DNA of 64,000 nt. Source: Blepharisma japonicum (Eukaryota > Ciliophora > Heterotrichea > Heterotrichida > Blepharismidae). Numbering within the stretch: position 1 is the stretch's first letter; each line of letters starts with the position of its first letter. The notes below the pieces were generated by a model. The model saw only the letters and a list, made by a program, of their open reading frames with translations, made no database searches and was not told the DNA's origin. The translations under genes were made by a program, and so were the position numbers. Below are positions 28,220-56,865 of the stretch, one piece after another. The stretch is taken from assembly GCA_949751835.1 (NCBI GenBank), contig CATKHK010000021.1, positions 372,001-436,000 on the forward strand, given 5' to 3'.

Positions 28220-28277
28220 CTCTTTTATTTTTCCTTTAAATTAATCTTAATAACTCTTAATTATAAACAATCATTAT

Positions 28278-30515: not shown

Positions 30516-33500
30516 TTAGTTAAAGATTAAGAATAGTGCTGCTAACACTCCTGTTCCCATAATAACTGCGCTACTATCAGTACTGCTTGAGCCACTTGTT
30601 GTAACTGCGACAACTGCTAATGAAGATGTTGATGAAGATACATCAATACATGTAGACCACAATGGATAACTGTTGCATGCTGTAAAGTAGCAATTATAGC
30701 TCGTTCCTGCACTTAAACCTGCTACTGTCAATGTCACACTTGTGCCTGCCGTTGCAACAGCTGCTGAGGTATGTGGCACAGATGAAGAACTACCATCTAG
30801 CCCATCTACGACTTGCCATGCATATGTCGTATATCCTGAAACTGTTGTGCATGATGCATAGACAGTTCCTACTTGGCTAGAAGTTGCTGTAAATACCGCC
30901 GAGGTGTCAGTTTTAGAGCTGAATGCTGGAGCTGCCGTCCAAGTTGGTGCAGTACCTGTTGAAACAGCGGTAGTAGCTCCATAAGTAGGAGAAACTCCAA
31001 CTATTGCTGTTAAATCAGTTGTAGCAGTTGTACTGTCAATATTTCCGATAATACTTGCAGGTGTATAGCTTGGCTTGCTTCTATCGTAAATGACATTATA
31101 AGTGAAGGTTGTGGTCGTTGTTGTTGTCCCAGTACCATCAGCGAGCATTCTTGAATTTTTAACAACCTGATCAGTTAGCCATAATGGATTAACGCCCATG
31201 TTCTTTGCCAACTTTTGTCTAATGCTGTCACCAGAACTTGTTTGAACAGTGGTTGCAAAAGATACTGATGTTGATTGGATTTGTGGGAGATCACTAGTTG
31301 AGATATTGACAGTCGTAGCTTTATAAGATGAAGTATCATTTATCAATTTGTTGTCTGCAAATGCTGTAATTGTGTAGGTAGTTCCACCCATAAGCCAATC
31401 GAAGGTAACTGTGGTTGCACCACTTCCAACAACTTGAGATGATGCCCAGTAGTCATCACAATGTTCTCTATGCTTTCTTTTGAAGAATGAGTAGATATCT
31501 GTGTCACCCTTAGCAGTGCTTGGATCAGTTTCTGTCGCTGCATATTCGGCTTTAAGTTGGTCATGAAGAGAAACTTGAGAGCTTGTTGGATTTACAAGAT
31601 CTGCAACAGTGCCTACCAATTGTGAAAATGTTGGGATTTCATGGCCTTGACATCCAATTCCCCAATAAAGAACTGCGCTGGCAGTTGTAGTCGCAGTTAT
31701 AGTAATAGAAGACCCAGTGACTGATTGCTTAGCCAAAGAAACAGTTGCAGCAGATAGTGTTGATGTGGTCGTTGTAATGCTTAATTTTTGGCTAGCTGGA
31801 GCTGAATAAATGGCTTTATCTGTGCCTGCTAGAGAAAATGAAAGTGTTGGAGCTGTTGAAGTTGAGGTGTATCCACCACCAATAGTAATTTGGAAGTAAA
31901 GAGTATTAACATCAGGTAAGAATTTAAGGGCTGTTGGAGTTACTGATGCAAGAGAAGAGTCAAGAGAAAGATTTATTGTCATGTCAGAGGCTGGAGCATT
32001 AGAAAGAGTTACAGCTACTGGAAGACTCTTGTATCCTGGATAAAGTGCTGAGATCTTTGCAACAGTAATTGTTGGCAAAGTTGAGTAGGCACTGTTTACT
32101 TCAACAAGCATGCTAACTGGGGCACTGTATCTGTTAGATGACCCTTCCTGAGCATATTCCTGTATTTTCCAATCAATATAATAGACCCCAGTTGCGGTAG
32201 CAGATGATGCAGAAACTCTGAATGTAAGTTCTGATTCCATTTGGAAGACCACAAATTTGTAGAATGCTGAAGAATATTTGAGATTTCCACTATCTGGGTA
32301 GTTTGCGTTAGATGATGGAGTCAACGTTATGTTTTTAGACATAAGAGGCCAATCTTCTGATACAGAAATTGTGATATCTTCACTCTGCTCTCCAGGTAAA
32401 AGAACAATACGGCTAGTAGAACTTGTTGGGCTGTCTGAATTGCCGTTACTACCAGTTTGTGATGTGCTTAGAGTATATCCTAAGTATCCTGAATGAAGTA
32501 CTCCATAGCTTCTTCCCACAACAGATTTTGAACTGGTATCTGAAATTATTACGTCAAATTTATTGCTCCAGCTTGCAAATTCTCCAAATTCAGTAGTATC
32601 TTTAACATCCCATCCAGTTGCTGCATCTCTATTTGTCAGAGCAGACTGAGGGTTGGATAATGTCGAAAATGAAATGCGGATCCTGTGAGCATTTGCTTTA
32701 AATGTCATAGAGCTGGTACTAGTGGGCACAGTTAAAGCTATGGTTTGCCCACTGACAGAACAAGATGTAGCAGAATTCCAAGTTTTAGTAGCTGTAGGAT
32801 CGACTCCTGATGTATTAGTTTCATCAAAGTATGAAGTTGAGCAAGTAGCTGTTGAGCCAAGAGTGAGTTGGAGATTGAATTGCGAAGGGAAAACTATACT
32901 AAAGACGTTAGTTGAGGCAATTGTCAAATCTGAGGTTACATAGAAATCGAAATCATATGAACTTGAAGCTGCTTGCTCAGCACTTGAAGATGCAACTCTC
33001 TTTAAGGTCGAAAGGCTTCCTGGTGATGAAGTGGTAACTGCTTGGGATTGAGATACAGACGCTTTAAGTGCGCTTGTTTTATCATAGTGGAATGCACTGA
33101 ATTTGCTGCTTCCAGACGATGAGGTATAAGGATTTCTTATTTTTGAAACACTCAAATCAATTGCAGCTGATGCAGCTAATGATTTAGTAGTGCCAGTTAC
33201 ATAAAGCTGCCAATGGTCTACAGTACAAGTGATTGCTCCAAGTGCTGTTGAGGAACAAGGGATATACCAAGCATTTGGCGTCGATTGATAAGTAACTGTA
33301 GCATCTCCAAGATATGGGTCGAAGTTTCTAGGGAATCTGATAACAAAGTAATCTCCTGATGCAACTGTAGCAGCAGATGTGAAAGAGAATGAATAAGTAG
33401 CGGCCTCTCCTTGGTTTTGGATATCAGTAATAGTGGGAGCATTTAGAGTTATTTGCGCACTGATTGATGCTTCTGGGGTAAATTTAACTCCTGCTGAAGA

Positions 33501-36500
33501 GTCTGCGAATAGTGTGAAGCTTGCCCATGATGCTGTAGCAACAAAGCCAGTGCTCATTGTAGATGGGACTGTTATCGCAGCATCCAAATAAAGCTTAATG
33601 CTTGCTCCAGAAGCAAGAGCGGAAGAGAAAATCAAAGTGACACTGCCGGATGAAGAAACTTGGCAAGATGTGTAATAGATCCCAGAGCCTGCATCTACCC
33701 AGCAGGAATCTTTAATATCAGTTGAAGAAGTCCACGACCAAGATGAGCCAGATGGGGCTGCAATAGCTAGAGTTCCGCCAGCTGGAAGGCTATAAGGTAG
33801 AGTAAACGTGAAATAAAGGTCAGCAATCTGGCCAGCTACATTTGGATATGCAGTAACTCCCATCCCTGAGGTTGTTCCAGCTACTGTTGGAGATGTAACT
33901 GTGTAAACATTGTCAGATCCTCCATTCGAATACTTATCTATATAACCACTAGATCCAGATGCATATGAGTAAATGCTCTTTACCATCTTTAAACTGCCTG
34001 CAGATGATGGAGGCAAAATATGATCAAGCTGTACTGTTAATGAAGAACTAGCAGAAATAGCATTGAAGTTTTGTAAAGTGATCTTATTTCCACTTGAACT
34101 CGGATCACATAGTTTTGCACCTGCAGTTGAAGCAGTTAGCGAAGAGCAGGAGCATGAAAGATAAGAGGATGAAGCACTCCAACCCCACTCTGTATAAAAT
34201 GTTATTTCTATAGTACCACCTGCTGGAACTGCATGAGCTAATGAGAATGTCACAGTTATTGATGTGTCTGAAGAGTCTGGCCCAGCAGCTTTAACGGTTG
34301 AAGGAGTGAAGCTTGATATAGTGATTGCACCTGCACCAATACTGGCACCAGTTACAGCTGAAGAATAAGTGCATGCCGCATTTGGAGTAGCTGTTGCAAC
34401 CCAAAATGTAAAGGAACTAGATATGTGCGGATCTGCGGAGAGTCTGTTTAATGGAGTTAAATTTGTCAATTGGAGAGAAAATGCTTTAGCAGTACTAGCA
34501 CTAGCACCATCTGTAACAGCTGCCCAAGATGAAGTAACCTTTCCAAAAATAAAACCTCCTGTGCTTGTGTCATTGCTTGAAGATGCTGCATATGAAGTTG
34601 CTGCTGATGTGAACGTTGCACTACCAGTATATGCTGTAGCATCTGAATTGCTGCTTACGCCAATTGTTGACGATGAAGTTGTCCATCCAGTAGAAAGTCC
34701 TACACCAATAATATTTGTATCAGCTATGCTTTTACTAGTACCAGCTGTAGCAAGAATTGCAGTTATAGTTCCGCTATTACCTATTATCCAGCTTGAGCCT
34801 GATGATGGTGCTGCTGCTGAAATAGTAGGTGTTGGGGTAGTAGTTCCAGTTCCAGTAGTTCCCCATGCAGCAGTTCCTGATACAGTCCAAGTTCCCTTTG
34901 TGGTATCATCTTGATAAAGGACCATTTTAGTTGAGCTATCTGCAGAAGTGGTATAGTAAAATGTTGTAGTTACAGTATAAGTATTAGCAGTATTCACATT
35001 TGGCAAATAAGTTGTAACTGTGCTTCCAGAAGTAATATCTCCAATATTTTTTAGAGTTACTATTGAATGTTTTACGCTACTCTTATCAGTATAAGTACTT
35101 ATTGTGATAATAGGTGTAGTAGTTGCTGATGTATAAAATGTTCCACTTGCTAGCGTCCCTTTCATTATAGAAGTTCCCATGAATCCAGTACTATCACTAT
35201 ATGATGCTGAAGTGCCACCAATGTCAATATCAATTGCAAAGTTATAGTTACTAGATGCAAAATTAAATTCCATATTAAGAGCTGTAAAAAGGTTTACAAT
35301 TGGAATTCCTGATCCAAGAGTTGTGCATAATGGAGCACTATATATATAAGCAGTAGTTTGAGGTAATACGCTGAATACGTTACTACCAATTTCACTTGGC
35401 GATGTAACCTGTGCCCACATTTCATAAAAAGTAGCTACATTTGATGCGACATAGGGCAAAGATGTGAGTGCTCCAGTACTTGTTCCAGAACCATAATATC
35501 CTACGATTAAGTAATTGGTATTTGTAAGTGTTGAGGTAGATGCTGGAATACTGATAGTAATTCTTGTAGAGCTTATTGTAGGAGTTCCTGTTAATTTAAG
35601 TGAAGTACTAGTCACATCTGTTCCCGCTACAGTTGTTAAAGGGTCAATAGCTTGATACACATCTGGCGGAGTTCCTGCGCTAATCAAAATGCTGTTAAAT
35701 GAAAGTACATCTGTAGCGATTGGAAGGTTCAAATAGAGTGTTGTAGCAACAGTAGCACCCCACGAAGTTGTTGCTTTTGGTTTAAGTCTGAAGTAAAGAT
35801 ATTCTTTATATTTACCTCCCATAATCTTGCCTGGAGTTAATGAAGCGATTTGTGGATATAGATTTGTGTCATACCCATGGAAGAAACAATCAGCCATTTG
35901 TGAATTTGTGGTGCTTAAGGTCCAAGAGGCTGCACTTGCAGAGAGCGCATCAACTGACTTTGATTTTGAATCTGTTGAAGTAATAGTTAAAATTGCTGCA
36001 TTTCCGGTAAATTTAGTTAACGTATAAACATAGAAAGTTGTAGCAGCTTGAGTACTGGTAAATGTTAATGTTACTTTAGCGCTATCAGTTGCAGAGCATG
36101 AAGCTCCAGATATATAAGGAGTAACATAGCAAAGAGTTGTTGAAGAGGCGCCAGTATGGCTTGAATCTATATCTGTCCACCAATAATTAGTGTTGACAGT
36201 GGCTCCACTGTAGGTAATTACAATACTACCACCACCATTTAAAGCATTCGAAGTTGTTATAGAGGCAACAGTAAAAATGGTCATTCCACTAACAACATCT
36301 GTTCTTGATATTTTACTAACAGGAGTCCATGATGATACTGAAATAGCCCCTGCAGTCATATCAACAGGCCCAGAGACTGCAGTGTATTCTCCAATTAAGC
36401 TAGTAGTACCCCATCTCCAAATTTTTAGTTTCCATGTATTTAAGGATGAGGACTGAACATATGAAGGTAAAGTGAATGAAGTAACGCTAAATTTGAGTTT

Positions 36501-37319
36501 CATTGCTGTTCCATTAAAATATGCGTCTTGATCTAGTCCGTAAATATAAACACTATTTCCAGCTGTATCTGCGTTAGTGATTGGATAAGGACTTGATGAG
36601 TCTGCAATACCACAGTGCATTGATGATCCACTATAGCCAGAAAGAACTGTAGTTCCGGCTTCATTTACACTTGTACAGGTTGGAGAAGATGAAGGTATCC
36701 AATCAGTAGCTGGCACAATCTCAATTATATCGTGCTTCCAAAGGCTTTGGCTAAGATTAATAGTGAAATAGAGAGTATCACTACCTTTGATTGCTTTAAT
36801 CCCGGTAGAAGTGACTGATAACCCACCAGAGCTAGTGACAGATGATTCTGACTTGGTATAAGCAATGCATCCGAAAACGTAGTTTGCATCGATTATTTGT
36901 CCAGTAGCACTTGATCTTGTCACAAGTCCAAAAGGTCCTAATACAGCTGAGGATCCTGAAATTGATGGAAGTGTTAGAGTTGCAGTCCCAGTTGTATATG
37001 TTAAGTCACCTACTGTTATTCCTACAGAGGTAGAGGTAGAAGCAGGAGTAAGTGTTCCAGGAGTTGTTGGTGTAGACCATGAGCCTGGATAGATTACTTG
37101 AGCTATAGCACTTGAAACAGGAATAGCAGTAGATGTCCTGAAGTGGAATGTAAGTACAACAGTAGACTCAGCTGTGGCTTGAGAAATTTCAATAGGATTA
37201 TTGAACCACTTTTCTTGAGGCCAAGTAATTCTTCCAGGATCAAGACTAGAATCATAAGATCCAAATGTTACGCAAGTTGCTAGTCCAATAAGAGCGATAA
37301 AACTTATAAGACTTTTCAT
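30516..37319 (-). CDS. Giant GPI-anchored-like surface protein, copy 1
   Basis: An uninterrupted 2,267-aa frame. It starts with a signal peptide (MKSLISFIALIGLATCVTFG) and then SYDSSLDPGRITWPQEKW, shared by all three copies. Most of the protein is Ser/Thr/Ala/Gly-rich and made of diverged domains of roughly 110-150 residues, recognised by strands such as GGSIVITYSG, GGTIEITFYTEWG, GGTLAIAAPSG and GDYFVIRFPRNFDPY, probably beta sandwiches. The C-terminal third is the most conserved (DIYSFFKRKHREHCDDYWAS, TFDWLMGGTTYTITAFADNK, SYNCYFTACNSYPLW). It ends with a hydrophobic AVIMGTGVLAALFLIFN and no cytosolic tail, fitting a GPI-attachment signal. All of its roughly 40 Trp codons are TGG. A cell-surface coat protein is the likely role; the family is unrecognised. 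Confidence 0.93.
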   Translation of the reverse strand: MKSLISFIALIGLATCVTFGSYDSSLDPGRITWPQEKWFNNPIEISQATAESTVVLTFHFRTSTAIPVSSAIAQVIYPGSWSTPTTPGTLTPASTSTSVGITVGDLTYTTGTATLTLPSISGSSAVLGPFGLVTRSSATGQIIDANYVFGCIAYTKSESSVTSSGGLSVTSTGIKAIKGSDTLYFTINLSQSLWKHDIIEIVPATDWIPSSSPTCTSVNEAGTTVLSGYSGSSMHCGIADSSSPYPITNADTAGNSVYIYGLDQDAYFNGTAMKLKFSVTSFTLPSYVQSSSLNTWKLKIWRWGTTSLIGEYTAVSGPVDMTAGAISVSSWTPVSKISRTDVVSGMTIFTVASITTSNALNGGGSIVITYSGATVNTNYWWTDIDSSHTGASSTTLCYVTPYISGASCSATDSAKVTLTFTSTQAATTFYVYTLTKFTGNAAILTITSTDSKSKSVDALSASAASWTLSTTNSQMADCFFHGYDTNLYPQIASLTPGKIMGGKYKEYLYFRLKPKATTSWGATVATTLYLNLPIATDVLSFNSILISAGTPPDVYQAIDPLTTVAGTDVTSTSLKLTGTPTISSTRITISIPASTSTLTNTNYLIVGYYGSGTSTGALTSLPYVASNVATFYEMWAQVTSPSEIGSNVFSVLPQTTAYIYSAPLCTTLGSGIPIVNLFTALNMEFNFASSNYNFAIDIDIGGTSASYSDSTGFMGTSIMKGTLASGTFYTSATTTPIITISTYTDKSSVKHSIVTLKNIGDITSGSTVTTYLPNVNTANTYTVTTTFYYTTSADSSTKMVLYQDDTTKGTWTVSGTAAWGTTGTGTTTPTPTISAAAPSSGSSWIIGNSGTITAILATAGTSKSIADTNIIGVGLSTGWTTSSSTIGVSSNSDATAYTGSATFTSAATSYAASSSNDTSTGGFIFGKVTSSWAAVTDGASASTAKAFSLQLTNLTPLNRLSADPHISSSFTFWVATATPNAACTYSSAVTGASIGAGAITISSFTPSTVKAAGPDSSDTSITVTFSLAHAVPAGGTIEITFYTEWGWSASSSYLSCSCSSLTASTAGAKLCDPSSSGNKITLQNFNAISASSSLTVQLDHILPPSSAGSLKMVKSIYSYASGSSGYIDKYSNGGSDNVYTVTSPTVAGTTSGMGVTAYPNVAGQIADLYFTFTLPYSLPAGGTLAIAAPSGSSWSWTSSTDIKDSCWVDAGSGIYYTSCQVSSSGSVTLIFSSALASGASIKLYLDAAITVPSTMSTGFVATASWASFTLFADSSAGVKFTPEASISAQITLNAPTITDIQNQGEAATYSFSFTSAATVASGDYFVIRFPRNFDPYLGDATVTYQSTPNAWYIPCSSTALGAITCTVDHWQLYVTGTTKSLAASAAIDLSVSKIRNPYTSSSGSSKFSAFHYDKTSALKASVSQSQAVTTSSPGSLSTLKRVASSSAEQAASSSYDFDFYVTSDLTIASTNVFSIVFPSQFNLQLTLGSTATCSTSYFDETNTSGVDPTATKTWNSATSCSVSGQTIALTVPTSTSSMTFKANAHRIRISFSTLSNPQSALTNRDAATGWDVKDTTEFGEFASWSNKFDVIISDTSSKSVVGRSYGVLHSGYLGYTLSTSQTGSNGNSDSPTSSTSRIVLLPGEQSEDITISVSEDWPLMSKNITLTPSSNANYPDSGNLKYSSAFYKFVVFQMESELTFRVSASSATATGVYYIDWKIQEYAQEGSSNRYSAPVSMLVEVNSAYSTLPTITVAKISALYPGYKSLPVAVTLSNAPASDMTINLSLDSSLASVTPTALKFLPDVNTLYFQITIGGGYTSTSTAPTLSFSLAGTDKAIYSAPASQKLSITTTTSTLSAATVSLAKQSVTGSSITITATTTASAVLYWGIGCQGHEIPTFSQLVGTVADLVNPTSSQVSLHDQLKAEYAATETDPSTAKGDTDIYSFFKRKHREHCDDYWASSQVVGSGATTVTFDWLMGGTTYTITAFADNKLINDTSSYKATTVNISTSDLPQIQSTSVSFATTVQTSSGDSIRQKLAKNMGVNPLWLTDQVVKNSRMLADGTGTTTTTTTFTYNVIYDRSKPSYTPASIIGNIDSTTATTDLTAIVGVSPTYGATTAVSTGTAPTWTAAPAFSSKTDTSAVFTATSSQVGTVYASCTTVSGYTTYAWQVVDGLDGSSSSVPHTSAAVATAGTSVTLTVAGLSAGTSYNCYFTACNSYPLWSTCIDVSSSTSSLAVVAVTTSGSSSTDSSAVIMGTGVLAALFLIFN

Positions 37320-38259
37320 TGGTGAACTTAGACTTTAGCTAATGCCTTATAATCTTTGCTAATGGCAAATGTTCCAAAAATTTTTTCGAATTTTGTTTTT
37401 GCGAGTATGGGACCTTTTCCATTTTCTAAGCTGAAAATAAAGTAAACTAAGCAGAATTATAATTATAAAGATGGCGTGAACAAAACTTTGCAGCTCTGCC
37501 CCTAGGAGTGCGGTCTCAAGAAGTTTATATAAGGACCACTTATTTTCTTTCAAAAAAACTTATATTTAAGGTCTTATAAGCCTGAAGAACAAAGAATTAG
37601 ACCAAGAGAAGAACGAAAAAGTGAAGCTCGCTGATTTTCTTGGAATCCAGCCAGAGATAATTAAAATTAAGAGGCTTTATAGCACTAGCCCTTCAAGGCA
37701 GATACATCTTGTGGTAAAAATTGCTTAAAATTAGACCTGGAGAGCCTAGCTATTTTAAGGACAGACTCTCATCAGAAATCTGAAGAAGACGCATATTTTT
37801 GATGTAAACGATAGAAGGAAGCCAAGGAATGATATTTAAATCTAACTATTAGATAGAAGACGGACAATTAAGATTTTTAGGTGAAAAATAGGCTTAAAAA
37901 GGGAATAAGAATTTCTTCCCCTCCCACAAAAATTCACAAGAATTTAGAAATAATTTAAATTGCTCCATAGATCTTGTCTTTAATTACCTATAAATCCTTA
38001 ATTTCTTCTTATTTCAGAGGTTTTTTTCTTCGCGGTCTTATTGAATTTTTCAAGCACCTTAATTTGGATTTCTATTAGTCAATGGAAGGTTAAAAACTGA
38101 GTTTCTGAAGCAGGTGACTCCCCTAAAACTTCCATATGTTCTGAAAAACTCTGGCTGTAATTCTCAACAGCAAAAAATTTATGTCTACATTAATAGGGAA
38201 TATATAGAGGTCAAAAATGGTATTCAAAATTGTAATGACATCATCATAATTTTTTATTT
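37320..38259. repeat. Upstream flank of giant copy 1, homologous to copy 3 flank
   Basis: About 350 bp upstream of the ATG aligns with the flank of giant copy 3 (shared words include CTTATTTTCTTTCAAAAA, CCTGAAGAACAAAGAATTAGA and ATCCAGCCAGAGATAAT). A weaker match continues towards 38230. It presumably holds the promoter. A 64-codon minus-strand frame at 37359-37553 is not conserved in copy 3, so I do not call it. Confidence 0.6.
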
Positions 38260-38853
38260 TTAAAGGTCTTTAGGCCTTATAAGATCAATATAAACCTTTC
38301 TAACACACTGTTTAATGTCCTCGATTGCTTCTTTATTTCCAGATGTAAGGACCAAGTATGCCTTAGTTATTGGCGAATACTCTTGAGATTGACTTCGTAA
38401 GTCTGCTTCAATAGTTTGCATTATCCTTTTCATTGACGCTATTTTTTGTAATCTTCTTGCTTCTTCTTCTTTTACCCGCTTTCTGTATAATCTCTTGCAC
38501 TTAAGATTTCTCTCTCTTTTAGTTTTAAACTCATTCTCATGATTTGCTGCTTCTTCTTCCTATTTTTTTTTTACATTTATGTAGTAGCAAAGATTTCTGT
38601 CGAGTAGGAATATTTTTGAATACCAGGTAAGAGCATAATCCACAATTCCAAAAGCTGATTTTGTGAATTTTTCTCCCCTCGATGTCAATAGCATGTCCCT
38701 TTTTTCGGTGACATAGTCTATAAGAGCTTCTATTGGAGTATGACCATTAACTCTAAGAAAGTCAACTAGACATCCAACTGCTGTGAGTTTGTATTGTTCG
38801 TAATAAGCGGCTGAGTTATCTGCATCTGTTGGTTGTAGAGGAAAAGTATCCAT
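38260..38853 (-). CDS. Small accessory-family protein, copy 1 (possible winged helix)
   Basis: With one 15-nt intron (38560-38574) removed, the product is 192 aa. Residues 20-95 (YKLTAVGCLVDFLRVNGHTP, GEKFTKSAFGIVDYALTWY, KIFLLDRNLCYYIN) form three helices followed by a beta wing, so a winged-helix fold is plausible. The second half is basic and helical (EEEAANHENEF, KRIMQTIEADL), then the conserved block EYSPITKAYLVLTSGN and the end YIDLIRPKDL. Two paralogs with the same intron position lie at 59124-59721 and 62175-62771. It sits directly upstream of giant copy 1's flank on the same strand. DNA binding is a guess from fold only. Confidence 0.85.
38560..38574 (-). other. 15-nt intron in small accessory gene, copy 1
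   Basis: On the minus strand, GT followed by a run of ten A and then TAG. Phase 0, between the wing and the EEEAA block. The same position is used in both paralogs. Confidence 0.88.
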
Positions 38854-40689: not shown

Positions 40690-41800
40690 TGCCTCTCTGC
40701 TCCCTTCTACTTCTTACTCCTCCTTCACCACCGCAGTTGTTTCTTTTCATAATATTTTTCCTCTTCTTCATCTCGAGCAGTCATTCTGCAAACTTTTCAC
40801 TCTTTCGGTTTGATTTTGGGTTGGTTTTGGGTATTATTTTGGGTTGCTTTTTGAGTTGGATTGGTCTTTGGTTTGTTTTTGAGTTGGATTTTGGGTTGGC
40901 TGCTGGGTTGATTGTTTGGATGTTGTTGGATTGGTTTTTGGATTGGTTTTTGTGCTGGCCTTTGAATTGATTTTGGCTAGTCTTTGGGTTGGCTCTCTTT
41001 TCGTGTGGCAACCAAAGGAATTGGCACCTTCTCCGCTTTCTCAAGGATCTGCGCCAGTTCTCCTGTATCAATCACCCTTCCTTCCGTTTTAGCGCTCCGC
41101 TTTAACATCATTTCTTCAAGCCTCTTATTGTCATTTTCAATTTCAACCTATTCTGTGAATTCTTCATCTCCAAGAATTTCATCGACCTCTTCCCAGAATT
41201 TTCATCATAAAATAACCTGTCCTCATCAGAGCTCTCTCAGCTAAAGAATCTTCGTCACTGCTGACTTCCAGATAGGCCGCTTTCTGATTGAATTTCTCTT
41301 TGTGAAGTTTCGCTCCTTTAAAAAATAAAAGTTACCTTAATGAATAATTCTTCTATTTTAAAAACACTAATTATTCTTTCTTCAGAATTCACGATATCTA
41401 AGCTCTATCCAAGTACAGTAATTTTAATTAATAGTTTTCCAAATGAAATGATATCGTAAAAAATTAAAATCAAAAAATTGTAATCATCTTCAGCAGCACA
41501 ATGTCTCTATTCGCATTTTAACTGCACTATGAGCTCGAGGGTTATAAGGCGAGCTCGTAATGTGATCAATGCTATAAGTATAGCAAAATTTATAAAGCTC
41601 CTTATTGCAGGATTCTTTTCCATTATCTGTCTGCAAAATATCTAGTAATTGAGGCAATGAGGAGAATAGAATCTTAAATTTATCAAAATCTTCTAATAAA
41701 GTTTTATTCAGTAAACAAAATGCTCAAATGTATTTAAGAAATTTTACAATAAACAAAATATAAAATCTATTATAATCTGCTGGGTAAATTTCTTAGAGTT
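40690..41800 (-). mobile_element. Fossil integrase-bearing element (LTR-retroelement or Polinton-like)
   Basis: Minus-strand remnants of a DDE-type integrase core lie at about 41470-41800, recognisable by LQTDNGKE and SPYNPRAH, words typical of rve-family integrases of retroelements and Polinton-like elements. Further along the same strand, about 40690-41330, is coding-like sequence richer in GC than its surroundings, with an acidic part and then a Lys/Pro/Gln/Asn-rich tail, which may be part of the same element. The element is broken, with several breaks, and only part of it remains. I see no terminal repeats. It lies just downstream of giant copy 2. Moderately old, since the protein signal is still legible. 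Exact family uncertain. Confidence 0.6.
40795..40995. repeat. Strand-asymmetric G/T-rich imperfect repeat
   Basis: The plus strand is nearly pure G and T, with irregular repeats of TTTTGGGTTGG-like and TTGGATTGG-like words of 8-12 bp. It lies within the fossil element's Lys/Pro/Gln-rich tail. Confidence 0.6.
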
Positions 41801-41869
41801 AAAAATTTATGAATATTTTATAAGAAAAATAGCTTTAAATCTTAGTAATTTGAAATTAGATAGAAGGGC

Positions 41870-44800: not shown

Positions 44801-47800
44801 TATTTGTGCACTTATAGAGGCTCCTGGGGTAAACTTAACTCCTGCTGAAGTGTCTTTGAATAATGTTAAGCTTGCCCATGTGGCTGCAGCAATAAAGCCA
44901 GAGCTCATTGTGGTAGGGACTGTTATAGCAGAGTCTAAATAAATATTAATAATTGTCTCAGAAGTAAGAGCAGAAGAAAAAACCAAAGTAATTTGGCTGG
45001 ATGAAGAAACTTCGCAGGACGTGTAATAGTTTCCAGTTCCTGCATCTACCCAGCAATAATCTTGAATAGAGAAAGAGGCAGCATATAGCCAAGATAAGCC
45101 TGATGGAGTTGCAATTGTTAGGCTTCCACCTTTTGGAAGAGCATAAGGAATTATAAATGTGAATAATAAGTCAGCAATTTGACCAGCTACATTTGGATAT
45201 GCAGTAACTCCCATTCCTGATGTTGTCCCAGCTGGTGTCGCAGTAGTGACTATAACTTGTGTATCTCCTCCTGCATTCACATACTTATCAATATAACCAA
45301 CAGGAGTGATAGAGCTCCCAGATGTGCTTGCAGAGGCATATGAATAAATACTCTTTACCAAGTATAAAATGGCATTAGATGATGGAGGCAATATATGATC
45401 AAGTTGCACTGTCAATGAAGTGCCAGCTGAGATAGCATTAAAGTTTTGTAAAGTAAGAGTGTAAGCACTTGAATTAGGAGAACATAATGGTATATCTTTA
45501 GATAAAGCAGTTAGTGAAAAGCAGGAGCATGAAAGATAAGAGGATGAAGCTTTCCAGCCCCAATCGGTGTAAAATGTTAATATTATAACTCCACCTGCTG
45601 GAACTGCATGAGTTAATGAGAATGTCACAGTTAATGATGTGTCTGAGGAGTCTGGTCCAGCAGCTTTAACGATTGTAGGAGTGAAGCTTGATATATAGAT
45701 TGTACCTAAACTAATGATAGCTGCATTGGCATTTGAATTAGCAGATGAATAATAAGTGCATGCCGCATTTGTGTCATATGCTGCGACCCAAAATGCAAAG
45801 GAACTAGATGTGTCAGGATCAGCGGAAAGTCTGTTTGGTGGAATTAAATTTGTCAATTGCAGAGAAAATCCCTGTGCTATATAACTCCCAGGGGTACCTT
45901 CAGAAATAGACCCCCAGGATGGAGATGAAGTGACTTTTCCAATAATAAAACCTCCTTTACTTGTGTCACTATTTGAAGAAGATATGTATGAAGTTGCTGC
46001 TGATGTGAATGTTGCACCACTGCCAGTATATGATGAAGCTGGAGAATAGCTGCTTATACCAATTGTTGACGATGAAGTTGTAGTCCATCCAGTAGAAAGT
46101 CCTACACCAATAAAATATCCAACAGGTATGCTACCAGAGGAACTACCAGACCCGGTTGTGGCAAGTATTGCAGTTATAGTTCCACTATTCCCTAGTGTCC
46201 AATATGATGGTGTTGCCGAAACAACGGGGGTTTGAGTTGATGATCCAATAATTCCCCATGAGATGGGACTACTCGTAATAGATCAAGTTGAATAAGTACT
46301 GTCAGCTTGGTAAAGAATCATTTTAGTTGAGCTATCCGGAGTAGTATAATAAAATGTTGTTGTAACAACATAAGAAGAGCTATCAGTATTCACATTTGGC
46401 AAATAAGTTGTAACTGTACTGCCAGAAGTAACTGTCCCAAGATTTTTTATAGTTACTATTGAATGGCTAACGCTATTGTAATCTGTATAAGTACTTATTT
46501 TAATATCAGGGGTAATGCTTGCTGATGAATAAAAAGTCCCACTTGCTAGAGTTCCTATCTTTATAGAAGTTCCCATGAACCCGTCATTATCACTATATGA
46601 AGCCGAAGTGCCGCCAATGATAATATCAATTGCAAAGTTATAGCTAGTAGATGCAAAATCAAAATCCATATTAAGAGCTGTAAAAAGGTTTTCAATTGGA
46701 ATTCCTGATCCTTGGGTTGTGCATAATGGAGCTGTATATATTGAAGCAGACCTTTGAGGAAGTACGCTGAATACATTACTACCAATTTCGCTTGGTGACG
46801 TAACTTGTGCCCACATTTCATAAAAAGTAGCTACATTTGATGCTACATAAGGCAAAGATGTGAGAGCTCCAGTGCTCGTTGTTCCATAGCCATAATATGC
46901 CAAGATTAAATAATTGGCATTTGTGAGTTGAGATGTGCCTAATGGAATATTGACGGTAATTCCTGTAGAACTTATTGTAGGAGTTCCTACTAATGCAGTT
47001 GAATAGGATAGAGTAATTCCTCAATTATCTGTTAAAGGATCAATAGCTTGGTAAATAGATGGGGCAGCTCCTCCACCAATTAAAATGCTGTTAAATGAAA
47101 TTGCATTTTGAGCAATAGGAATATTTAAAGAAAGTGTTGTAGAGGCATCTCTGCCCCAAGAAGTCGATGAATTAGGCTTAAGTCTGAAGTAAAGAAATTC
47201 TTGATACCTTCCTCCCATTATAGTTCCTAAATTTAATGAATCTGGTCTTGGATAAGTGGCTGTGTTATACCCATGGAAGAAACAATCAGTCATTCGTGAA
47301 TTTGTGGCGCTTAAGGTTCAAGCTGTACTTATAGACATTGCATCAACTGATTTTGAATTGGAATTTGTTGAAGAAATACTTGAAATTGATGCAAAATTTG
47401 AAGTAAATTGTGTTAAGGTATAAACTTGGAAAGTTCCTGCTACTTGAGTGCTCGTAAATGTTAATGTCACTTGTGCGCTTCCAGTTGCAGAGCATGAAGC
47501 TCCTGAAATATAAGGAGCAACATAACAAAGAGTTGTTGAAGAGGCATCAGTATATCCATCAAGGTCTGCTCACCAATAATTGCTGTTAACACTAACTCCA
47601 CTGAAGTTAATTACAATACTTCCACCACCATTTAAAGCATTCGAAGTTGTAACAGAGGCAACAGTGAAAATAACCATTCCACTAACAACAGCTGATTTTT
47701 GTATTTTACTGACAGGAACCCATGATGATACTGAAATAGTCCCCGCAGTCATATCAACAGGGCCGCTGCTTGCAGTGTATTTTGCGATTAAGCTAGTAGT

Positions 47801-48694
47801 TCCCCATCTCCAAATTTTTAGTGTCCATGAATTTGAAGATGAGGTCTGAACATATGAAGGTAAAATAAATGAGGAAACACTAAATTTGAGTTTCATTGCT
47901 GTTCCATTAAAATATGCGTCTTGATCTAATCCGTAAATATAAACACTATTTCCAGCTGTATCTGCGTTAGTGACTGGATAAGGACTTGATGAGTCTGCAA
48001 TACCACAGTGCATTGATTGTCCATTATATCCGGAGAGAACTGTAGTTCCTACCTCATTTACACTTGCGCAGGTTAGAGAAGATGACGGGATCCAATCAGT
48101 AGCTGGGGCAATCTCAATAATATCATGTTTCCAAAGGCTTTGACTTATAAGAAAGGTAAAAGAGAGAATATCACTGCCTTTGATTGATTTAATCCCATTA
48201 GAAGTGACTATTAAGCCGCCAGCATTTGTAACAGATGATTTCGACTTGGTATAAGCGATGCAGCCGAAAACATAGTTTACATCGATTATTTGTCCAGTCG
48301 AACTTGATCTTGTCACAAGTCCAAAAGGTCCTAACACTGCTGAAGATCCTGAAATTGAAGGAAGCTGCACTTTAGCACTCGTTGTATATGTTACGTCGCC
48401 TACTGTTATTGCTCCAGTAGGATTAAGTGTTCCAGGAGATGTTACAGAAGATCATGAGGCTGGATAGATTACTTGAACTATAGCACTTGAAATAGGAACA
48501 GCAGTAAATGTCCTGAAGTGGAATGTAAACGTGATATATGATTCAGCATTTGCTTGAGAAACTTCAATAGGATTATTACACCACTTTTCTTGAGGCCAAG
48601 TAATTCTGCCAGGATCAAGGCTAGAATCATAAGATCCAAAGGTAATGCACGTTGCTAGTCCAATAAGAGTGCTAAAACTTATAAGACTTTTCAT
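41870..48694 (-). CDS. Giant GPI-anchored-like surface protein, copy 2
   Basis: The frame is continuous once TGA is read as Trp at eight places (low coordinates 42740, 43604, 43919, 46283, 47021, 47318, 47570, 48452), giving 2,274 aa. Every one of these falls on a Trp conserved in copies 1 and 3, so this is an intact gene rather than a pseudogene. Layout is as in copy 1: signal peptide MKSLISFSTLIGLATC, repeated Ser/Thr-rich beta domains, conserved C-terminal third (DIYSFFRRKHREHCDEYW) and hydrophobic end SGILAAILLIFN. The C-terminal half is closer to copy 3, the N-terminal half more distant from both. Likely a cell-surface coat protein. Confidence 0.92.
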
Positions 48695-50052
48695 AGGCAA
48701 ACAATTATTTTGGGCTTAGAGGTCTAGGGAACAAAGAATTAAATGATGGGGAGAATAAGAAACTAGTGCGCTCTGGAAATATGATGATCCAGCCATAGAT
48801 AATCACAATTTAGAGGTCTTAAAACCTGAGTTTTCAAGAACGATACAGTTTTCAACTAGATATTACTTTAAGAAGACCTGGGGAGGCGAATTTTATTAAT
48901 CTTACTACTTAACTTAAAAAATTCAAGGAATAACTTGATTTTATATTAAGAAACTGGGAAATGCCAAAAAATTAATTTTGAAGCTATCTCTTATTCTCAT
49001 AAGCAGAGAAAATCAAAAGTTTAAATTAAAATCACATTTCAAATGAAAAAATTAGTTTTTTCTTCTCTTGGGAACATCTTCCAGAACTGTAGGATGGTTA
49101 ATTTCAGTATGATCTATATTTTTTCGCTCTTAAAAGCTTCGATTACCACTTATTTCCTAAGGTAAATTATATTTTTTTTGATATTTCAAATCAGACTTGG
49201 CTCCAAGATAGCTTTTTATGGCTTTTCTATATCAGAGAAGTTTTCAAAAAAGAGACCTTGAAGCACTTTGCCTTAATTGAAATATTTTGTATTCTAGAAA
49301 CTTTTAGGTTTAGTTTATAAAAGGCGGACATATTTCTATCTACATTTAAGGTAAATGTATAGATGATTTTGGAAAACTGTGTAGGCAGGCGAAATTATGA
49401 TGATCTCTTGCGATCCCTAAGAAAGATAGTTTTCTTTGAATGGATAACTCACAGCCTATTCGAGGAGTTATATATTCAGCTTAAAGATATCAAAATTTTT
49501 ATATGTAATTCCACCAAGGATCTTCCTGCTGTAGGACTACCGTTTGGGTTAACCTTTCCAATTAGATAATTCCGTATAATTATTACTTCTTGAAGAGGCT
49601 ATATATGCTTTGTTTACTCAAGTCTTGAGCTTGGCCTCACTTCTTTATTTCTCAATATAATTTCATATCTAATTTAAGAGATATAAGAACAAATAGAAAT
49701 TTTGTATTAGAGAGGTAATCAATTTGATCACTAAGTTATAAAAATCTCATATTATTTAAATTAAATAAGAGAGAGCTTGGATAAAAGAATAATTATAAAA
49801 ATTAAATCCAATTTTATATTCAGATAAATACTATATATTATTCTTAAATGAAGAAATGGAAGAATTTCATAAGGATTAATCTTCTGATCTGGTATCTTTG
49901 CATAAAACCTTATACCGATTTAATCCCATAAACCACCTCTTCAAAAAATTTCTTATCTAATCTAGAAGTCTTTAATTTTATTTTAATAGAAAAACTGCTA
50001 AAAATATATAGAATAAGCATTTTAAATGTGAAGCAAATTAGATTGGAAAGGC
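48695..50052. repeat. Upstream flank of giant copy 2
   Basis: From 48695 to about 49370 this aligns with the flank of copy 3 (for example GGACATATTTCTATCTA near 49327 and near 57724), but about 230 bp present next to the start codons of copies 1 and 3 is absent. From 49370 to 50020 I see no gene. The last 30 bp are the shared 3' flank of copy 3. No small accessory gene is found here, unlike units 1 and 3. Confidence 0.6.
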
Positions 50053-53000
50053 TTAGTTAAAGATTAAGAGCAGAGCTGCCAATATTCCCAATCCCATAAT
50101 AGCTGAGCTATCAGTTGAACTTGAGCCAGTTGTTTTCACTTGTACAGTCTTCAAAGAAGGAACTGCTGTAGATACATCAATGCACATCGACCACATTGGA
50201 TAACTGTTGCATGCTGTAAAATAGCAGTTATAAGTAGTTCCAGCTTTTAATTTTGATACAGTCAATGTCACATTCTTGCTTGCAGTTGCCACATTTACAC
50301 AGGCAGAAGGTACAACAGAAGACGTAGAATCCAGTCCATCTACAACTTGTCAAGCATATGTCGTCCCTCCTGAAGCTGTTGTGCAAGATGTACAGATTTT
50401 TCCTACTTGATTTGATGCTGCTGTAAAAATTGCAGTTGTATCAGTTTTAGAAGTTAACACTGGATCAGTAGACCAAGTTGGTGTAGTACCTGTTGAAACA
50501 GCAGTGGTAGCTCCATAAGTAGGAGCCCCAACCTGCGCTGTTAGCTCAGTAGTAGCAGTTGTAGTATCAAGATTTGTTATGATAGATGCTGGAGTGTAAC
50601 TTGGCTTATTTCTATCAAAAATAACGTTATAGGAGAACGTAGTCTTGGAAGTTGCAGCATCAGCTAGCAATCTAGAATTGGTCACAGCTTGCTCAGTAAG
50701 CCATGCAGGGTTAACACCCATGTTCTTTGCAAGAGTCTTTCTAATATTATCACCAGAAGATTTATCAATTGTACCTGAAAATGAGACTGATGTGGACTGA
50801 ATTTGTGGGAGATCGCTGGTTGTGATGTTTATGGTCACTGGAGTATAAGTTGAAGTATTATTAATCAGTTTGTTGTCGGCAAACGCTGTTATTATATAAG
50901 TAGTTCCACCCATAAGCCAGTCAAAGGTTATATCTGTTCCTCCAGAACTCACAACTTGAGATGATGCCCAGTATTCATCACAATGCTCTCCATGCTTCCT
51001 TCTAAAGAATGAATAAATGTCACTGTCACCTTTAGAAGTGTTTGGATCAGTTTCTGTTGCTGCATAATCTGCTGCAAGCTGATCTGAAAGAGAAAGTACT
51101 GACTTGCTTGGATTTACCAAGTCAGAAATCGCACCCACCAGTGTTGCAAATGATGGAATTTCATGACCTTGGCAGCCAATCCCCCAATAAAGGACTGCGC
51201 TTGCAGATGTTGTTGCAGTTAGAGTGATAGAAGATCCAGTTGTTGATTTTTTAGACAAGCTGACAGTTGCTGCAGTTGGATTAAATGTAGTTGTTGTGAC
51301 GCTTAGAGTTTGAGTAGCTATAGCTGGATAAATAGCTTTATCTGTTCCTGAAAGAGCAAATGAAAGTTTTGGAGATGCTGTAGATGAAGTATATCCACCG
51401 CCTATCGTAATTTGGAAGTAAAGAGTACTAATATCAGGTCCAAATTTAAGGGATGTTGGGGAAACAGATGCAATTGAAGAAACAGAGTCAAGTGAAAGAG
51501 AAATTGTCATATCACTGGCTGGGGCATTAGAAAGGGTAATAGGAATAGGAAGACTTTTATAGCCTGGATATAGAGATGGCATCTTACCAACAGTAATTGT
51601 TGGTGAAGTTGAATAGGCACTGTTAACTTCTACTAGCATGCTAGCTGGAGCACTATATCTGCTGGTTGAAACTCCTTCTTGCATGGTTTCAGCTATTTTC
51701 CAGTCAATGTAATAAATACCATTAACAGTTGAAGAGGATGCAGAAACTCTAAAAGTCAGCGATGGGCACATTTGGAAGATAATCCATTTGTAGTACGCTG
51801 ATGTATATTTAAGGTTTCCAGAGTCTGGGTAGTTGGGATTAGATGATGGAGTCAATGTGACCTTCTTAGACATCATAGGCCATTTATCAGAATAAGAAAT
51901 TGTGATATCCCCACTTTGCTCTCCTGGTAAAAGAATAATGCGACTAGAAGAGCTTGAGGAGCCGGTTGAGCCACTACTGCTTCCTGATTGATTTGCGCCT
52001 ACAGTATATCCTAAGTATCCTGAGTGAAGAACTCCATAGCTTCTCCCCACAACTGATTTTGAGCTTGTATCAGTAATGATTACTTCAAATTTATTGCTCC
52101 AGCTTGAAAATGAGCCAAATTCAGCTGTATCTTGGACATCCCACCCAGTTGATGTTTCTCGAGTTTTCAAAGCAGACTGAGGGTTGGATAAGGTTGAAAA
52201 TGAAATCCGAATCCTGCTGGTATTTGCTTTAAATGTTACAGAACTGGTGCTTGATGGAACAGCTAAAGCAATGGCTTGCCCGCTGACAGTGCAAGATGTG
52301 GCTGAGTTCCAAGTTTTCGGACTTGTAGCGTCAACTCCCGATGCATTTGACTCATCATAGTATGAAGTTGAGCAAGCAGTTGTTGAACCAAGAGAAAGCT
52401 GAAGATTGAATTGTCTAGGGAAAGATATCGAAAAGACGTTTGTTGTGACAACTGTTAAGTCTGAACCTAAATAGAAATCGAAATCATATGAACTTGAGGC
52501 TGAAAGGTCTGTCTTAGAAGATACAACTCTCTTTAAGGTCGCAAGACTTCCTGGTGATGATGTAACTACCGATCCAGACTCAGGCGCATAGGCTTTAAGT
52601 ACGTTAGATTTATCATAGTGGAATGCTCTGAATTTTCCACTTCCAGACGATGATATATAAGGGTTTCTGATTTTCGAAACAGTTAAGTCAATTGCAGTTG
52701 ATACACCTAATGTTTTTGAAGCCCCAGTTATATAAAGTTGCCAATGGTCGACAGTGCAAGCTATTGTACCAAGTGCGGTAGAAGTGCAAGGAATATACCA
52801 AGTATTAGGTGTTGTCTGATAAGTAACTGAAGCGTCACCAAGATATGGATCAAAATTCCTAGGGAATCTGATCACAAAGTAGTCTCCTGATGCAACTGCA
52901 GCGGCAGATGTGAAAGAGAATGAATAAGTAGCAATTTCTCCTTGGTTTTGGGAGTCTGTGATAGTGGGAGAACTTAGAGTTATTTGTGAACTTATAGAGG

Positions 53001-56000
53001 TTCCTGGGGTGAATGTAATTCCTGCTGAAGGGTCTGCAAATAGTGTTACGCCTGCCCATGATGCTGTAGCGACAAAGCCAGTGCTCATTGTGCTAGGGAC
53101 TTTTATAGCAGCATCTAAATAAACATTAATAGTTGCTCCAGAAGCAAGAGCAGTAAGGAAAGTTAAAGTAATTACACTGGATGAAGTAATTTCGCATTTA
53201 TCGTAGTAATTTCCAGAGCCTGCATCTACCCAGCAATAGTCTTGAATAGAAGTAGGGGAGGCAGGGTAATTCCAAGTTGAGCCTGATGGGGTTGAAATTG
53301 CCAAGCCTCCACCTTTTGGAATAGCATACGGAAGTTTGAATGTGAGCAATAAATCAGCGATCTGGTCAGCTACATTCGGATAAGCAGTGACTCCTAGCCC
53401 TGTTGTTTTTCCAGTTTCTGATGCAGTAGTGACTGTAACTTGATTGTCACCTGCTGAACTTGTAAATTTATCAATATAGCCAGTGCTTGCTGATGCATAT
53501 GAATAGATGCTTGTTACTAAGGAAGGGGTTCCTGCAGATGATGGAGGTAATATATGATCGAGCTGCACTGTTAGAGGAGTGTTAGCAGATACTGCATTGA
53601 AGTTCTGTAAAGTAATTTTATAAGTGCTTGAATCAATTGCGCATATTGGATCTTTAGATGAAGCAGTCAGAGAAGAGCAGGAGCATACAAGATATTTGGA
53701 TGAAGCACTCCAACCCCAAGTGCTATTCAAAATTATTACAATTGTCCCACCAGCTGGAACTGCATGAGCTAATGTGAATGTCACTGTTATTGATGTATCT
53801 GAAGAGTCTAGCCCAGCAGCTTTTATATTAGTTGGAGTGTAGCTTGATACTGTAATTTTTCCTAGAGCAATGCTAGCTGCATTGGCATTAGAATTTGTAT
53901 CTGAAGAATAAGCGCAATCTGCATTCAATGAGGTTTTTGCGACCCAAAAATTAAACTTACTTGATATATCTGGGTCAGCACCAAGCCTATTTGGTGGGGT
54001 CAAGTTTGACACTTGGAGAGTAAATGCAGCCCCAACATAATTGCTAGTGCCTCCTGTTTCAGTGACTAATCCCCAGTTTGAAGCAACTTTTCCAATAATA
54101 AAGCCACCCTTGCTGGTGTCACTACTTGAACTTGCTATATATGAGGTTGTAGCTGTCGTAAAAGATGGTGAGCTATTTGAGTACGTTGATGCTAAATTAG
54201 ATGTAGTTACACCTATTGTTGATGACGAAGGAGCATTCCAACCAGTAGAAAGCCCAACTCCAATAAGAAAATTCTCAGATATAGGATTTGTAGTAGTAGT
54301 ACTTCCACTTGTTGCAAGAATTGCTGTTATCGCTCCACTGCTTCCTATAGTCCAACTCGAAGTTCCTGAAACTGTTGGAGTTTGAACTGTGGGGCTAGAT
54401 CCAGTACTTCCCCATTTCACAGGATTAGCTCCTATAGACCAAGTTGAATAAGTAGCATCAGCTTGGTAAAGGACCATTTTAGTCAAGCTATCTGTAGAAG
54501 ATGTATAGTAAAATGTTGTGGTAACAGTATAAGAAGCACTCTCAGTATTTAAATTTGGTAAATAAGTTGTAACTGAATTGCCAGAAGTAACTGTACCAAG
54601 ATTTTTTATAGTCACTATAGAATGATTGACTTTTTTGCTATCATCATAAGTACTTATTGCGATATTAGGTGTAGTAGTTGCTGATGAATAAAAAGTTCCA
54701 CTTGCTAAAGTTCCTTTCATTATATAAGTTCCCATAAATCCAGTGCTATCACTATATGAAGCTGAATTGCCAGCAATGTCAATATCAATTGCAAAGCTAT
54801 AGCTACTAGATGCAAAATTAAAATCCATGTTAAGAGCTGTAAAAAGGTTTACAATTGGAATTCCTGATCCAGGGGTTTTGCATAATGGAGCACTATATAT
54901 AGAAGAAGAAGTTTGAGGGAGTACGCTGAATACGTTACTACCAATTTCGCTTGGAGATGTAACTTGCGCCCACATTTCATAAAACGTAGCTACATTTGAT
55001 GCTACATAAGGCAAAGATGTGAGTGCTCCAGTACTCGTTGCTCCAGAGCCATAATATCCTATGATTAAGTAATTGGTATTTGTAAGTGTAGTTGTGGCTG
55101 ATGGAATAGTAACAGTAATTCTTGTAGAGCTTATTGCAGGGGTTCCTAAGAATTTAGCTGAATTAGTAGTCACATCTGTTCCCGCTGCAGTTGTTAAAGG
55201 GTCAATAACTTGATAGACAGCTGGAGCAGCTCCTCCACCTATAAAAATGCTTTTAAATGAAATTGTATCTGTAGCAATAGGAATATTCAAATAAAGTGTT
55301 GTAGCAGCACTAGTACCCCACGAAGTCGTTGCTTTTGGTTTAAGTCTAAAGTAAAGATATTCTAGATATTTTCCTCCCATAATGTTGCCTACAGCTAATT
55401 TAGCGCTTTCTGGATAAGTGTTTGTGTTATACCCATGGAAGAAGCAATCAGTCATTTGTGTATTTGTAGTGCTTAAGGTCCAAGAGGCTGAGCTTGCAGA
55501 AATTGCATCAACTGATTTTGAATTAGAATTTGTTGAAGAAATGCTTGAAATTGATGCGGGACTTGAGGTAAATGCTGTTAGCGTATAAACTTGGAAAGTT
55601 CCAGCTGCTTGAGTACTGGTAAATGTTAATGTTACTTTAGCACTATCAGTTGCAGAACATGAAGCTCCAGAGATATAAGGAGTAACATAGCAAAGAGTTG
55701 TTGAAGAGGCGCCTGTATGTTTTGAATCTAGATCTGTCCACCAATAATTGGTGTTGACAGTGACTCCACTGTAGGTAATTACAATACTTCCACCACCTGT
55801 CAAAGCATTAGTAGTTGTAAAAGAGGCAACAGTAAAAATGGTCATTCCACTAACAACATCTGTTCTTGATATTTTACTATTAGGAACCCATGATGATACT
55901 GAAATAGTCCCTGCGGTCATATCAACAGGGCCTGTGTTTGCGGTGTATTTTGCAATTAAGCTAGTAGTTCCCCATCTCCAAATTTTCACTGCCCATGAAT

Positions 56001-56865
56001 TAGAGGATGAGGTCTGAACATATGGAGGTAAAGTAAATGAAGAAACACTAAATTTGAGTTTCATTGCTGTACCATTAAAATATGCATCTTGACTTAACCC
56101 ATAGATATAAACGCTATTAGATTTGCCATCTAGGTTGACAACTGGATAAGGGCTTGTCGAGTCTGCAATACCACAGTGCATTGATTGTCCATTATATCCG
56201 GAAAGAACTGTAGTTCCGGTTTCATTTACACTTGTACAGGTTGGAGAAGATGATGGGACCCAATCAGTAGCTGGGACAATCTCAATTATGTCATGCTTTC
56301 AGAGGCTTTGACTTATAGAGAAGGCAAAAGAGAGAGTATCACTACCTTTAATTGTTTTAATCCCAGTAGAAGTGACTGTTAAGCCACCAGCATTAGTAAC
56401 AGATGATTCCGACTTGGTATAAGCGATGCATCCGAAAACGTAGTTTGCATCGATTATTTGCCCAGTCGAACTTGATCTTGTCACAAGTCCAAAAGGTCCT
56501 AACACTGCTGAAGATCCTGAAATCGATGGAAGTGTCAGACTTGTGCTTCCAGTTGTATATGTTAAATCGCCTACTGTGATTGCTCCAGTAGGACTAAGTG
56601 TTCCAGGGGATGTTGGTGTAGACCATGAGCCTGGATAAATTACTTGAACTATAGCAGTTGAAAGAGGAATAGCTGTAGAAGTTCTGAAGTGGAATGTAAG
56701 CGTAACAGTAGACTCAGCATTAGCTTGAGAAACTTCAATAGGATTATTACACCACTTTTCTTGAGGCCAAGTAATTCTGCCAGGATCAAGGCTAGAATCA
56801 TAAGATCCAAAGGTTATGCACGTTGCCAGTCCGATAAGAGCTATAAAGCTTATAAGACTTTTCAT
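50053..56865 (-). CDS. Giant GPI-anchored-like surface protein, copy 3
   Basis: Continuous 2,270-aa frame with TGA-encoded Trp at 50350 and 56299. Signal peptide MKSLISFIALIGLATC is followed by the shared SYDSSLDPGRITWPQEKWCN. Domain order, cysteine pattern and the hydrophobic end GLGILAALLLIFN match copies 1 and 2. In the N-terminal quarter it is closest to copy 1 (ISRTDVVSGMTIFTVAS, TNYWWTDLDSKHTGASS), whereas in the C-terminal third it is closest to copy 2 (SKKSTTGSSIT, DPNTSKGDSDIYSFFRRKH), which suggests past recombination between copies. Likely a surface-coat protein exposed on the cell or in the pellicle; function unproven. Confidence 0.93.

Follow-up and report, generated by a model that had tools for sequence, protein, structure and literature searches.

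A probable family of giant GPI-anchored surface-coat proteins with Ig-like and FN3-like domains in the heterotrich ciliate Blepharisma japonicum

A 64,000-nucleotide (nt) stretch of Blepharisma japonicum DNA (contig CATKHK010000021.1, positions 372,001 to 436,000; here called the window) carries three giant genes, g1, g2 and g3, on its minus strand. Judging from sequence, we consider it probable that they encode a heterotrich family of rod-like surface-coat proteins anchored by glycosylphosphatidylinositol (GPI) and built on a scaffold of immunoglobulin (Ig)-like and fibronectin type III (FN3)-like domains, analogous to the known ciliate surface antigens and not a member of them. The proteins would be giant (~235 kDa before glycosylation), extended and Ser/Thr-rich. 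A predicted signal peptide would direct their export, and GPI, replacing the C-terminal tail, would hold them at the outer face of the plasma membrane. According to weak models, the string of domains may form a rod on which the conserved N-terminal domains and the variable ones of the middle project outward. The most likely function, by analogy with what has been proposed for other ciliate surface antigens, would be a protective or recognition coat.

Three intact genes and their divergence

The genes lie in a region of 26,350 bp (30516–56865) that spans the outer ends of their open reading frames (ORFs).

30516–37319, minus strand: g1, candidate giant surface-protein gene; 2267 codons, stop TAA, TGA at 0 of 40 Trp codons.
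41870–48694, minus strand: g2, candidate giant surface-protein gene; 2274 codons (TGA read as Trp), stop TAA, TGA at 8 of 41 Trp codons.
50053–56865, minus strand: g3, candidate giant surface-protein gene; 2270 codons, stop TAA, TGA at 2 of 40 Trp codons.

An earlier note on this DNA had described three intact genes of about 2,270 codons on one strand that occupy over 20 kb of 26 kb, and both statements hold: the frames are uninterrupted when TGA is read as Trp and take up 20,442 of the 26,350 bp. The frame of g1 stays open even under translation table 11; at the base composition of the window, 2267 open codons would arise by chance with a probability of ~1e-58. Ten in-frame TGA codons are present, eight in g2 and two in g3. 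Both other copies have TGG at eight of these places and Ala at one; at the last, one copy has TGG and the other Phe. The ORFs are open under the euplotid code (TGA as Cys), too, but the alignment of TGA positions with TGG rules this code out. A tblastn search of the window with the three proteins (E up to 1) returned the three full-length places and no further copy or fragment.

The calculated mass after the signal is 234–238 kDa. Ser and Thr together make up 30–32% of the residues, Pro 4.0–4.6% and Cys 1.1–1.2%; 24 Cys columns are common to the three copies and comprise all Cys of g1. It is this size alone that would suit the apoprotein of the pigment-binding photoreceptor of Blepharisma, reportedly of ~200 kDa. 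No ligand or sequence evidence points that way and a 200-kDa protein is not mentioned in the literature found, so that we regard this identification as scarcely credible.

Pairwise protein identities among g1, g2 and g3 are 72, 75 and 78%, and the ratio of nonsynonymous to synonymous divergence (dN/dS, Nei–Gojobori) is 0.31–0.35 for the three pairs. The three genes are under purifying selection. At columns 800–1200, dN/dS is 0.28–0.49 in all three pairs, compared with 0.31–0.35 for the whole gene. Invariant columns amount to 71–77% in the N-terminal domains D1–D3, 46–55% in D6–D8, 65–71% from D9 to F1, 56% in F2, and 58% in the tail (domains defined below).

At 516 informative synonymous codons, the pair of copies that agrees shifts along the gene: g1 agrees with g3 mainly at columns ~345–575, g1 with g2 at ~805–1265, and g2 with g3 from ~1495 on. 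The chi2 for this mosaicism is 108.9, whereas 5000 permutations average 38.3 and reach 75.7 at most. The simplest cause would be gene conversion or recombination between the copies. The copies would have arisen by tandem duplication and, under the purifying selection seen here, would exchange segments by gene conversion.

Ends and domains of the predicted proteins

The features at the two ends of the proteins are as follows.

37272–37319, minus strand: signal-peptide-like N-terminus of g1, MKSLISFIALIGLATC, identified by its hydropathy.
48647–48694 and 56818–56865, minus strand: signal-peptide-like N-termini of g2 and g3.
30519–30590, minus strand: C-terminal GPI-like signal of g1, ...SGSSSTDSSAVIMGTGVLAALFLIFN.
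41873–41941 and 50056–50124, minus strand: C-terminal GPI-like signals of g2 and g3.

The proteins of g1 and g3 have the same start, and that of g2 starts with MKSLISFSTLIGLATC. All three end with small residues followed by a hydrophobic stretch ...LIFN. In g1 and g3, no 13-residue window is more hydrophobic than those of the N- and C-terminal segments; in g2, these rank third and first. With a cut for a signal-like N-terminus at a hydropathy of 2.2, g1 and g3 pass (2.72), as do 2 of 60 other ORFs. A home-made rule for GPI signals, which includes a no-charge condition, accepts the tails of g1 and g3. Among the other ORFs of the window it accepts one out of 108, and among artificial internal ends 18 out of 6451. 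Of the signal peptide that had been ascribed to each protein, a signal-like N-terminus is supported, with g1 and g3 above the cut and g2 narrowly below it. The C-terminal hydrophobic stretch without a cytosolic tail is common to all three, with a flaw in g2 that is given below.

The signal-like N-terminus, the Ig-like and FN3-like domains and the richness in Ser and Thr would fit any extracellular matrix protein, and the tail of g2 is imperfect for GPI. The family might accordingly be exported without forming a coat, as a secreted matrix, cyst-wall or extrusome protein whose tail either serves simply to anchor it in the membrane or is cut off. However, the C-terminal hydrophobic stretch is kept in all three copies with nothing beyond FN, and a secreted protein would have no need of it. 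We hold this alternative to be unlikely.

Between the ends, boundaries placed by eye, with a recurring motif of the form F.F....PxGGxIxIxFP as a guide, give ~ten strongly diverged domains of 140–190 residues, followed by the C-terminal block.

32520–37271, minus strand: g1 D1–D10, about ten diverged Ig-like beta-sandwich domains (residues 17–1600; by-eye boundaries).
33900–34328, minus strand: g1 D7, the best-modelled beta-sandwich domain (predicted local distance difference test score, pLDDT, 41–82 per 10-residue block).
31290–31754, minus strand: g1 F1, FN3-like on weak evidence, with a helical insert that carries KHREHCDDYW.
42635–43096 and 50812–51276, minus strand: F1 in g2 and in g3 (HGEHC in the latter).
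30984–31289, minus strand: g1 alpha/beta segment (pLDDT below 50 throughout), which may be SEA- or ferredoxin-like by strand and helix order alone.
30591–30983, minus strand: g1 F2, a putative membrane-proximal FN3-like domain (models and a sub-threshold fn3 match).
41942–42334 and 50125–50517, minus strand: F2 in g2 and g3.

The domains resemble one another weakly. Self-comparison of g1 and g3 by blastp gives no off-diagonal repeat, an HH self-scan finds one weak pair (D7/D8, probability 21–24%), and an iterated hidden Markov model search kept D7 and D8 only, with everything else at E 0.01–0.9. In a profile comparison whose anchors were picked by eye, so that the common register is not independent evidence, five of 78 pairs exceed the control maximum. 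Three of the five (D11/F1, D1/D2 and D8/D9) were dropped as neighbouring segments that share residues. The remaining two, D7/D8 and D9/D10, score above the best of 312 controls, and other pairs are suggestive only.

Structure prediction, proposed in the earlier note as a check, consisted of two AlphaFold models from three-row alignments, covering g1 residues 985–1600 and 1600–2267 only; D7 and the strands of F2 are the better-modelled parts. In Foldseek, the D7–D10 model matches integrin alpha chains, the mastigoneme protein MST1, UafA, Als3, ClfB and SdrG (best 50 of 890 matches). The C-terminal model matches MST1 first and, among the matches listed, fibronectin FN3 fragments with probability 1.00; it also matches 6zzd_D (MB_CRS6-13, 96 residues, a monobody by name) with a target-normalized TM-score (TMt) of 0.63 and a root-mean-square deviation of 5.0. 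A viral fold search gave a DUF11-type Tupanvirus protein first (E 2.5e-7), which we take as an indication of fold class only.

Pfam gives a similar, sub-threshold picture. Big_8 matches D9 in all three copies (E 0.0025, 0.039 and 0.015; 14.5–18.4 bits, cut-off 22.9), fn3 matches F2 of g2 (14.2 bits, cut-off 25), and Big_5 matches D7 of g1 below threshold. In the scan of whole proteins, DSCAM FN3 matches F1 of g2 (16.7 bits, cut-off 39). Four other candidates were rejected: CBM_6 for D8 (E 0.00036), found in g1 and in neither other copy; DUF2808 for D7, found at different places in g1 (0.075) and g3 (0.0061); and DUF5332 for F2 of g3 (0.025) and GH97_C for F1 of g2 (0.12), both inconsistent between copies.

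Taken together, the models and matches offer weak evidence for tandem Ig-like domains followed by FN3-like ones, as a fold class and not as a named family. The earlier note had left the family unrecognised; no match reaches threshold, and what can be added is a partly recognisable domain class. Its many beta-type domains are supported as a class, with strong divergence and only two non-overlapping pairs above all controls. Its conserved HREHC block needs rewording, as HREHC occurs in g1 and g2 and HGEHC in g3, all three sharing KHxEHCD(D/E)YW.

The weak Big_8 likeness of D9 in all three copies and the Foldseek matches to MSCRAMM and Als3 adhesins might instead indicate a dedicated adhesion or mating-contact receptor, for conjugation recognition or for prey or substrate binding, in place of a general coat. 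Yet the Big_8 matches lie below the cut-off in copies that are not independent, a reversed-sequence control reaches E 0.01, no evidence of a ligand site is seen, and the low use of TGA in g1 and g3 (below) hints at abundance, not at a rare receptor. We rate such a receptor as very unlikely.

Several observations weigh against a GPI-anchored coat on an Ig/FN3-like scaffold. G2 fails the GPI rule by one Lys, 13 residues from the C-terminus, and its N-terminal hydropathy of 2.12 is just below the cut. The mean pLDDT of the two models is 47 and 42, from three sequences each, and the Ig and FN3 assignments cover parts of them at best; Foldseek TM-scores by query are 0.06–0.21 among the matches listed. 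All Pfam matches are below their cut-offs, the best of ten reversed-sequence controls has an E of 0.01, and the DSCAM FN3 match occurs in one of three copies and is gone when F1 of g2 is scanned alone. As for an antigen-like pattern of change, pairwise dN/dS per 200 columns is 0.18–0.60 with no sign of diversifying selection, and the last domain F2 (56% invariant) is conserved no better than D7–D8.

Upstream DNA, codon usage and genomic surroundings

What is new here is that g2 lacks a block of ~230 bp at the ATG and has more TGA Trp codons.

37334–37561, minus strand: upstream block of g1 (~230 bp, limits approximate), common to g3 and missing in g2.
56879–57106, minus strand: upstream block of g3 (~230 bp), homologous to that of g1 and missing in g2.
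48695–48705, minus strand: junction in g2, where position -11 of g2 aligns with -242 of g3; only in this way are the two upstream regions similar.

The block adjoins the ATG and is 70.5% identical between g1 and g3 over 234 aligned columns; the upstream DNA of these two genes is similar from -15 to -425. Beyond the block, g2 and g3 are the closest pair over 205 three-way columns (76.6%, compared with 67.8 and 62.9%). Therefore, loss of the block in g2 is the simpler account. An assembly error at the junction may explain the missing block instead.

TGA accounts for 31 of 78 Trp codons in 13 neighbouring ORFs, and its share is lower in g1 (P 3e-7) and g3 (P 3e-5). The share in g2 differs from that of g1 and g3 combined (P 0.0026), of g1 (P 0.005), and of the neighbours (P 0.039); g2 is not separated from g3 alone by TGA share (P 0.088) or by GC at fourfold sites (P 0.79). 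Preference for C-ending over T-ending codons, relative to the neighbours, is raised in g1 (P 0.006) and g3 (P 0.04) and not in g2 (P 0.58). Some ordinary neighbours are low in TGA as well (ferrochelatase 0 of 6, striatin 1 of 11), which tempers a reading in terms of expression.

The upstream block and codon usage suggest that g1 and g3 are probably well expressed, and that g2 may be silent, weakly expressed, or under another promoter. G2 is no pseudogene, because it retains an intact ORF and has a share of dN/dS of 0.37, compared with 0.33 and 0.28 for the other two copies. One could go further and see a system resembling antigen switching, with two expressed coat genes, a promoter-less silent donor and conversion mosaics, on an Ig/FN3-like scaffold independent of the Cys-rich antigens of Paramecium and Tetrahymena; we judge this quite unlikely to be right. 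The mosaic copies, one of them lacking the upstream block, offer a case in which gene conversion and differential expression could be tested in a free-living cell that faces no immune adversary.

Twelve of the 20 flanking ORFs scanned have a Pfam match at E ≤0.001. They include a protein kinase, an ABC transporter, a tRNA pseudouridine synthase, a GH38 alpha-mannosidase (in two exons), a TPR protein, ferrochelatase, SLD5, a Ras-like protein, SERRATE, and a striatin/WD40 protein. Therefore, the region is an ordinary gene-dense eukaryotic one. A 15-nt GT...AG element joins the two GH38 ORFs. TGA as Trp and introns of 15 and 16 bp are given for Blepharisma stoltei in the accessible text of PMC9942806, and the window is like that species in its code and in the 15–16-nt introns of neighbouring genes. 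The telomere unit CCCTAACA of B. stoltei, as found in that text, is absent from the window; a subtelomeric location therefore lacks support.

Three paralogous small genes of ~200 codons (38258–38801, 59122–59666 and 62163–62714, minus strand; DNA identity 68–71%) are interspersed with the giant genes and share one intron site, the introns being 15, 16 and 15 nt long. No Pfam family matches their exon pieces above cut-off. They may belong to a duplicated unit with the giant genes.

Other elements of the window are a degenerate 12-bp tandem repeat, TTTGGGTTGGTT, between g2 and g1 (40803–40952), and genes for tRNA-Phe (27500–27574) and tRNA-Glu (28147–28220), 2–3 kb past the 3' end of g1 and beyond the striatin/WD40 ORF. 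A paralogous tandem gene pair (15108–16520 and 16786–18270) is 73% identical over 1 kb and coiled-coil-like by eye, with no Pfam family at E 0.001. A direct tandem repeat of ~300 bp (58120–58418 and 58424–58724; 77% identical) is interrupted by stops in each of the six frames. A 58-bp stretch (60170–60227), 93% identical to its own reverse complement, lies where the window ends in AT-rich DNA with few ORFs; a weaker self-complementary stretch (82%) lies at 21021–21073.

Comparison with known surface proteins

What is known of giant GPI-anchored coats in ciliates comes mainly from the Cys-rich proteins of Paramecium and Tetrahymena. Searches for direct homologues of g1–g3 gave none. A tblastn search of phage records with g1 found no homologue; in viral contigs, g3 gave no pattern match and the three-copy alignment 29, none of which was confirmed, and in prokaryote genomes none of 40 pattern matches was confirmed. 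NCBIfam and PHROGs matched none of the three proteins (E up to 1), and sequence searches of the PDB gave no match or matches only at E 0.2 or worse. The family was not found among the matches listed for literature on a heterotrich or Blepharisma coat family, a search with most subscription journals outside it. The words 'surface' and 'GPI' do not occur in the accessible main text of the B. stoltei paper (PMC9942806), and the accessible part of PMC10892320 has putative gamone receptors only.

The Gram-positive MSCRAMM adhesins and Candida Als3 share with g1–g3 the Foldseek matches and the weak Big_8 match of D9. The likeness is sub-threshold throughout, however, no LPXTG occurs in the last 45 residues, and g1–g3 are eukaryotic genes with TGA as Trp. 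MST1 of Chlamydomonas (9b4h, 8wa2), the first structural match of the C-terminal model, is large and extracellular, with Ig-like domains in tandem, as predicted for g1–g3, but has no sequence match to g1–g3 (2026 copy of the PDB), and its Cys-rich filament domain and poly-proline region, as described in the accessible text of PMC11015965, are not in g1–g3.

The ciliate antigens are similar in layout, as the earlier note had said and as comparison with Paramecium SAg and Tetrahymena Ser bears out. The accessible texts describe giant GPI-anchored antigens with intrachromosomal duplicates in Paramecium (PMC9788069) and Ser genes in same-strand tandem arrays in Tetrahymena (PMC4136848). The Cys patterns are different. 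SAg proteins have a Cys periodicity, whereas g1–g3 have 24–28 Cys in ~2270 residues, at most 4–6 per 120 residues, and no lag above shuffles in any of the three. The CTVNxxGTGC motif of SAg is not found in g1–g3, and the Pfam surface-antigen family matches none of the three proteins at E up to 10, DSCAM FN3 in g2 being the sole match. Ser proteins are Cys-rich, whereas g1–g3 appear Ig/FN3-like; the Ser pattern C-x(6 or more)-C, with six Cys in 120 residues, occurs in none of the three, although in g2 and g3 a stretch of 71 residues holds six Cys, the first gap being 2. Because the defining Cys patterns fail and no Pfam family is matched at threshold, g1–g3 are members of neither SAg nor Ser.

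In the course of change along the gene, g1–g3 depart from SAg in that central dN/dS is not clearly raised and the last domain is no more conserved than the middle; the SAg rule of conserved ends is seen at the N-terminal end and partly at the C-terminal end. Like SAg, g1–g3 are giant, have a putative GPI-type C-terminus and paralogs on one chromosome, and are more conserved in their N-terminal part than in the middle. Like Ser, they form three same-strand tandem copies of one subtype, in 26.35 kb, with a putative GPI-type tail. A coat family of this layout in the other major branch of the ciliates, on a beta-sandwich scaffold unrelated to theirs, would mean that such coats evolved more than once.

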